Program-made: the position numbers and the translations under genes
Assembly (NCBI GenBank): GCA_016213735.1
Contig: JACQZU010000019.1
Span: 186,001 to 250,000, forward strand
Origin: Acidobacteriota bacterium
Lineage (GTDB): Bacteria; Acidobacteriota; Holophagae; Holophagales; Holophagaceae
Length of the DNA stretch: 64,000 bases
Direction of reading: 5' to 3'
Shown: positions 11,815 to 23,116 of the stretch, one piece after another
Numbering within the stretch: position 1 is the first letter of the stretch
Layout of the letters: every line of letters starts with the position of its first letter
Notes under the pieces: model-generated
What the model was told of the DNA's origin: nothing
What the model saw: only the letters and a program-made list of their open reading frames with translations
Database searches by the model: none

Positions 11815-12270
11815 TCACTCCCGCGCGCCCTTGCGGACGCGGTCCATTTCGCGCTTGGCCTCCCGTTCCTTGAGGGCCTCCTTCTTGCTGCGGGCCTGCT
11901 TGCCTTCGCAGAGGGCGATGCGGAGCTTCACCTTCCCCTTCTCATTCAGGTACATGGCCAGGGGGATGAGGGTGTAGCCCTTGCGGTCCACCTTGGAGGC
12001 CAGCTTCCGGATCTCGGCCTTGTGGAGCAGGAGCTTCCGGGGGCGCAGGGGCTCGTGGTTGGTGAAGGTGCCGAATTCGTAGGGGCTGATGTGGGCCTGG
12101 CGGAGCCAGAGCTCCCCCGCCACCACATCCACGTAGGCGTCCTGGAGCTGGCCCCTCCCGGCCCTCAGGCTCTTCACCTCCGTCCCCAGGAGGCAGACCC
12201 CGGCCTCCCAGGTTTCAAGGACGTGGTAGTCGTGCAGGGCTCGGCGGTTCCGGACCAGGTCGGCGGTCAT
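11815..12270 (-). CDS. smpB: SsrA-binding protein
   Basis: This tmRNA partner is required for rescue of stalled ribosomes. Typical motifs are NRRALHDYHVLETWEAGV, the block GTEVKSLR near the N-terminus, and the basic C-terminal tail rich in Lys and Arg that occupies the ribosomal decoding site. Its 151 residues are the normal length. The gene stands alone, convergent with rseP across the large inverted repeat. The tmRNA gene itself was not seen nearby. Confidence 0.97.
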   Translation of the reverse strand: MTADLVRNRRALHDYHVLETWEAGVCLLGTEVKSLRAGRGQLQDAYVDVVAGELWLRQAHISPYEFGTFTNHEPLRPRKLLLHKAEIRKLASKVDRKGYTLIPLAMYLNEKGKVKLRIALCEGKQARSKKEALKEREAKREMDRVRKGARE

Positions 12271-22932: not shown

Positions 22933-22952
22933 GGGGGCTCCTGCAAAGCAAA

Positions 22953-22979
22953 ACCGCCGGGCTGGGAGGCTCCGGCGGT
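22953..22979 (-). terminator. Attenuator hairpin upstream of DAHP synthase
   Basis: On the minus strand an 8-bp perfect stem (ACCGCCGG with CCGGCGGT, 11-nt loop) is followed by TTTGCTTTGC, ten bases before the aroG ribosome-binding site. Its 5' arm can instead pair with CCGGCGG at 23014-23020, inside the last codons of the leader peptide. The two structures are mutually exclusive, as in classical amino-acid attenuation. Confidence 0.75.
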
Positions 22980-23002
22980 GGATTCGAGGTTCGCGGCTGC
23001 GC

Positions 23003-23062
23003 CTAGCGACCCTCCGCCGGAAGCGGATGGGTAAAGGCGAAGGTGAAGGAGGGACGTTTCAT
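23003..23062 (-). CDS. Phe-codon leader peptide of the DAHP synthase gene
   Basis: This 19-residue open frame reads MKRPSFTFAFTHPLPAEGR. It has Phe at every second position from 6 to 10, encoded TTC, TTC and TTT, reminiscent of enteric pheA and pheST leaders. It ends 70 bp before aroG, and the region encoding its last residues carries the strand able to form the antiterminator. A ribosome stalled at the Phe codons would leave that strand free; one reaching the stop would cover it. No clear ribosome-binding site is visible, which is the main weakness. Confidence 0.7.
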   Translation of the reverse strand: MKRPSFTFAFTHPLPAEGR

Positions 23063-23116
23063 CGGAAGGGTTCTGGAACTGCCATTCAAGCACGGAGGCC
23101 CGGGGAGGCCAAGGCC

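Follow-up and report, generated by a model that had tools for sequence, protein, structure and literature searches.

A putative phenylalanine attenuator with betaproteobacterial-type relatives upstream of the DAHP synthase gene aroG in an Acidobacteriota genome

Introduction

Leader peptides through which transcription is attenuated in response to phenylalanine are known from the pheA and pheST genes of the enterobacteria. The locus described here, situated in a stretch of 64,000 nucleotides (the window) from an Acidobacteriota bacterium of the family Holophagaceae, resembles these systems in its Phe-rich leader, its mutually exclusive antiterminator and terminator and the Phe-related gene downstream, but differs in targeting the first step of the shikimate pathway and in occurring in a different phylum. 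The leader contains fewer Phe codons than that of pheA and, unlike pheA and pheST, the element has no counterpart in Rfam; no leader family or T-box was matched at the gathering threshold in the window or in seven related loci, and at a permissive setting the only matches, to lncRNA, miRNA and snoRNA families, were chance-like and scored far below threshold. Judged from its sequence features and its relatives, the element probably represents (at a rough probability of 0.87) a classical ribosome-mediated transcription attenuator, which would match the output of the DAHP synthase AroG to the phenylalanine supply.

The mechanism itself is textbook ribosome-mediated attenuation. The apparently newer elements are the mixed Phe/Tyr/Trp leaders of the related genes, the narrowing to Phe in this locus and the apparent transfer of a gene together with its switch. 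None of the papers searched described an aroG leader peptide in the Betaproteobacteria or Acidobacteria, though an earlier prediction may exist. According to a 2010 survey (PMC2965389), the Firmicutes cases that it presented were the first leader-peptide systems to be shown outside the Proteobacteria and Actinobacteria, and almost no predicted attenuator of the Acidobacteria had an assigned function. Conserved leader-terminator units before aroG and trpE would place classical attenuation firmly in the Acidobacteriota.

Anatomy of the aroG leader region

The features of the leader region and of the loci with which it was compared are given in Table 1. The target gene had been annotated initially as a DAHP synthase, and this is borne out by its match to TIGR00034 and by its best PDB matches, 4hsn and the Phe-sensitive enzyme of E. 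coli. The switch lies directly before aroG, a gene for the synthesis of the amino acid that would be sensed and hence its candidate target, and dsbD is located directly upstream on the same strand. The 19-codon leader with three Phe codons at alternating positions proved to be present base for base on the minus strand. It contains no Tyr and no Trp codons, and most relatives have more regulatory codons. Taken alone, a Phe-rich ORF is weak evidence for an attenuator; at least three Phe in five codons also occur in two other short ORFs of the window. One of these, MRSFTFPFSFRYMARGMRV on the plus strand at 11918-11977, lies opposite a minus-strand ORF of 151 codons, a probable smpB gene, and is thus ascribed to chance.

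Table 1. Locations of the features of the aroG leader region and of the loci compared with it. Positions are those of the window unless another locus is named.
Feature	Location	Strand	Description
aroG	22932-21832	minus	Type I-alpha DAHP synthase, 366 aa; NCBIfam TIGR00034 aroFGH, 507 bits
Leader ORF	23062-23003	minus	MKRPSFTFAFTHPLPAEGR + TAG; 19 codons, Phe at codons 6, 8 and 10
Possible promoter	23084..23112	minus	TTGGCC-17-TTGAAT; 21 nt before the leader ATG; 8/12 consensus matches; weak
Candidate protector hairpin	23009..23032	minus	ACCC-UCCGCU/GGCGGA-GGGU; minimum-energy fold; would hide A2 if the leader were untranslated
Antiterminator strand A2	23020-23014	minus	CCGGCGG; leader codons 15-17; starts 12 nt after Phe codon 10
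Intrinsic terminator hairpin	22979-22972 with 22960-22953	minus	ACCGCCGG/CCGGCGGT; 8 bp, -18.3 kcal/mol; same stem in relatives
U-tract	22944..22953	minus	TTTTGCTTTG; interrupted, as also at corresponding family sites
Second aroG (L111)	G000:C9:58418-59446		DAHP synthase of the family's own type
trpE Trp leader (L154)	G000:C21, about 1314-1470	reverse	WWW run
Native family leader loci	L002-L005, L009, L012, L014, L015, L018-L020, L022, L023, L026, L027, L116, L120		17 aroG loci

No clear Shine-Dalgarno sequence was seen on inspection ahead of the leader ATG. The candidate promoter was not listed by a stricter promoter/terminator scan, and its spacing of near 21 nt to the leader recurs in members of the family. 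An intrinsic terminator lies between the leader and aroG. The hairpin proposed in the initial annotation and the T-rich stretch that follows it were both recovered, the latter as an interrupted tract, and the stem begins 23 nt after the leader stop codon; a strict pattern scan with a loop limit of 8 nt did not list this terminator. The further proposal that the 5' arm of the hairpin may pair instead with CCGGCGG in the last leader codons also holds, such that the arm CCGCCGG can be engaged either by A2 or by the downstream 3' arm. The two pairings exclude each other and are placed so as to depend on the position of a ribosome, as A2 ends within reach of a ribosome sitting at the leader stop codon.

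Several comparisons set this arrangement apart from its sequence background. The window contains a single copy of CCGGCGG...CCGCCGG...CCGGCGGTTT in this order, where 100 dinucleotide shuffles give an expectation of 0.00, and this copy is also the only one in the whole 3.59-Mb genome, in which a reversed control pattern is absent. When the leader was recoded synonymously 5000 times, just 4 of the variants matched its pairing with the terminator 5' arm, and the fold of the leader region is more stable than those of shuffled versions (z -2.60). Phe-rich short ORFs do arise elsewhere in the window by chance, and in a genome of high GC content a short ORF could accordingly have come to lie beside a GC-rich repeat by coincidence. 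This explanation is scarcely credible given that the motif is unique in the genome and absent from the shuffles and that the same arrangement precedes orthologous genes; the comparative data refute it.

Control at the level of translation, through ribosome reinitiation or masking of the aroG ribosome-binding site, could be exerted by a leader peptide in principle (PMC4833913). In the same paper it is argued that about 40 bp is the minimum for attenuation, while reinitiation peaks near 10 bp. The leader stop codon lies 70 nt from the aroG start, and the hairpin, which has a U-tract behind it, ends ahead of the GCAGGAG ribosome-binding region, all of which renders translational control very improbable.

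Proposed mechanism

From this arrangement we infer translation of the leader, stalling of the ribosome and the direction of control. When Phe-tRNA is ample, the ribosome would reach the leader stop codon and cover CCGGCGG, so that the 5' arm CCGCCGG would join its downstream partner, the terminator would form and transcription would stop before aroG. Under a shortage of Phe-tRNA, the ribosome would be expected to halt at Phe codon 6, 8 or 10. Assuming that it covers about 12 nt ahead of the A site, the leading edge of a ribosome halted at codon 10 would fall just short of CCGGCGG, and the exposed A2 could then pair with the terminator 5' arm, allowing RNA polymerase to continue into aroG. Folding calculations follow the same pattern; with the ribosome placed at codon 10 the antiterminator is favoured until the terminator 3' arm is made, and with the ribosome at the stop codon, where CCGGCGG is covered, only the terminator can form.

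In a leader that is not translated, a hairpin over codons 11-18 may mask CCGGCGG and thereby favour termination. Thermodynamic folding indicates that the antiterminator can form before the terminator 3' arm exists even without a stalled ribosome, and the model therefore depends on this protector hairpin folding first. Folding alone does not suffice to settle the state of the untranslated leader.

Related leaders upstream of aroG

Conservation of the Phe or other aromatic codons in relatives had been put forward as a check, and at least 80 other aroG loci (at least 81 with the window) proved to have a leader rich in aromatic codons with a terminator-like hairpin after it. The distance from the leader stop codon to the stem is mostly 16-30 nt across these loci. 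Leaders mixing Phe, Tyr and Trp precede most of the listed aroG genes of the Burkholderiales and Xanthomonadaceae (L031-L110), as exemplified by MNTGRFYFWYFRFFRPSAEELG (L031), MSAKFYFYFFWHLKPLADREG (Caballeronia and Burkholderia) and MNASCRSFYFWYYGFPMPLAEEGSRSP (Xanthomonas). They share with the window element the gene, the layout, the terminator core CCGCC..GGCGG and the antiterminator core GGCGG, and are probable homologues on the grounds of this layout, the A2 and terminator words and the placement of the window aroG with its six nearest rows (clade support 99/94). Among the matches listed, the closest relatives of the attenuator thus appear to be betaproteobacterial rather than from the Holophagae. 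The A2 core starts 6-16 nt past the last aromatic codon in 62 of the 63 listed betaproteobacterial-type loci, with the window counted, and the CC/GG/CC variable positions beside the GGCGG/CCGCC core are shared by 21 of these 63. Pairing is weak in some relatives, for example L031 and L032, the two nearest listed with a leader. The search was not positive everywhere, as no leader with terminator was recognised in the close relatives from Polynucleobacter (L049, L050 and L059) or in the nearby rows L033, L034 and L061, and inspection of 29 aroG loci from other parts of the phylum showed no comparable unit.

Seventeen aroG genes of the window's own family carry native leaders, such as MTPRFHRYYWFPRADRAWHGEGPA before ACCCCGATCC...GGATCGGGGT, which were chosen by a motif (ADRA or VDRA) in addition to the aromatic count. 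These resemble the window element in gene, layout, aromatic leader and terminator-like hairpin, and differ from it in their words (antiterminator GGATCG pairing with CCCCGATCC, terminator ACCCCGATCC...GGATCGGGGT), in the additional presence of Tyr and Trp codons and in belonging to a different aroG clade. A comparison with related Holophagae had been suggested in the initial annotation; an attenuator does appear to precede the family's native aroG, but it is built from different words, and the nearest kin of the window's switch among the matches listed are betaproteobacterial. The family leader MTRRLHHHYYRPSRADRAWSGQGLS (L022) lacks Phe and contains a His run, which suggests that its sensor codons have drifted.

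All three aromatic amino acids are represented in 48 of the 62 betaproteobacterial-type relatives among the matches listed and in 16 of the 17 native family leaders. The window leader might on this basis be regarded as a general sensor of aromatic amino acids or of translation rate, rather than a Phe-specific one. This is unlikely, however, as among the aromatics only Phe can be directly sensed by a leader without any Tyr or Trp codon, and a separate Trp leader precedes trpE in the same genome. The ancestral sensor instead appears to have comprised Phe, Tyr and Trp, of which the window leader, unlike its usually mixed counterparts in the Burkholderiales and Xanthomonadaceae, retained only Phe. 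The occurrence of mixed leaders before the first shikimate enzyme suggests a simple RNA route to joint control by three products. A broader proposal can be advanced only tentatively, at slightly less than even odds: that the aroG attenuators form a largely undescribed class sensing Phe, Tyr and Trp, which spread between phyla with the gene and became Phe-only in this locus, and that the family's native aroG is served by an attenuator which shares this logic but not the sequence. Such a class, if real, would tie entry into the shikimate pathway to Phe, Tyr and Trp alike.

Covariation of the alternative pairings

Covariation of both alternative stems in relatives, which had likewise been suggested as a check, was found well beyond that in shuffled sets. 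A2 and the two terminator arms were aligned in register for 78 loci; L095, which has a different hairpin, was left out of the pairing counts, and the covariation count also omits L002 and L004, owing to the different A2 site that the program had picked in them. Double-change cells numbered 94 in the antiterminator pairing, where shuffles averaged 35.5 and reached at most 58, and 111 in the terminator pairing, where shuffles averaged 43.7 and reached at most 71; these counts are not to be equated with probabilities because the aligned sequences are kin. Since A2 had been chosen by pairing, it was searched for anew in each of 300 permutations, where the true mean pairing score of 10.16 exceeded the permutation maximum of 8.81. 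Part of the covariation depends on kinship among the sequences and on the selection of A2 by pairing. Most persuasive is that one type has all three strands replaced relative to the other; the strands shift jointly between lineages, reading CCGGCGG/CCGCCGG, CTGGCGG/CCGCCAG or, in the family to which the window belongs, GGATCG/CCCCGATCC, and the pairing of leader and arm is better with the own type than with the other (10.6 versus 5.8, and 8.4 versus 6.8). Shuffle tests on single relatives are often weak (p up to 0.85), with synonymous recoding giving p <=0.05 for 19 of the 80 relatives, and the claim therefore leans on the whole set and on the strong value of the window itself. Taken together, the layout of the locus, its conservation in relatives and the covariation of the two pairings support the initial annotation of the element as a classical Phe attenuator.

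The switch could alternatively be a decayed relic; having been brought in with the gene, it would have shed its Tyr and Trp codons and become unresponsive, and the hairpin would now serve mainly as the terminator of dsbD. The loss of the Tyr and Trp codons of most relatives, with only three Phe codons left, would fit such decay, as would the interrupted U-tract, the lack of a clear Shine-Dalgarno sequence and the position of dsbD directly upstream on the same strand. Against this, the pairing of A2 with the terminator arm is still strong, as the synonymous recodings indicate, and neither the ORF nor its three Phe codons nor the spacing has been disrupted. The hairpin also trails the leader in relatives with another upstream gene, being retained in L031, where an alaS-like ORF takes the place of dsbD. 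Decay to a relic is accordingly considered improbable, and a functional attenuator remains the preferred reading.

Origin of aroG and its switch

Relatives of the window aroG were sought with a pattern-based scan of one genome per species across about 85,000 species. The best 80 among the matches listed share 71-56% identity with it and derive mainly from the Burkholderiales and other Betaproteobacteria, while its identity to the aroG of the window's own family is 49-55%. In the tree it falls inside a mostly betaproteobacterial clade (45 rows, SH-aLRT 100). The second aroG of the genome groups with the family's own aroG in trees and has no recognisable leader upstream, and as the window aroG is of betaproteobacterial type, the switch probably came with the gene. 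Forcing the window aroG into the family clade was rejected marginally (AU p 0.044) and some of the nearest rows are metagenome bins with doubtful labels, and horizontal acquisition of aroG and its switch from a betaproteobacterial-type donor is thus likely rather than proven. The apparent joint transfer of a gene and a ribosome-sensing switch bears on whether such switches work across phyla.

Attenuation upstream of trpE and other genes

A search of the same genome revealed no aromatic leader with terminator upstream of pheS or of the two pheA-like genes, and no His leader upstream of hisG. The trpE gene is preceded by MVRRPCSPSAAASKAWWWCAGSDGASEAL and a terminator-like hairpin. Like the window element, this leader of the classical trp type would combine sensing by ribosome position with a terminator and an aromatic biosynthesis gene, but it contains a WWW run, would sense Trp and precedes anthranilate synthase. 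With such leaders defined by two or more neighbouring Trp codons and a terminator-like hairpin after them, they were found before trpE in all 30 family loci (this genome and 29 relatives, L158-L186), which points to a second, putative conserved attenuator and suggests that attenuation is normal in this family. A promoter-like TTGACA-17-TCTCAT is located upstream of the trpE leader in this genome.
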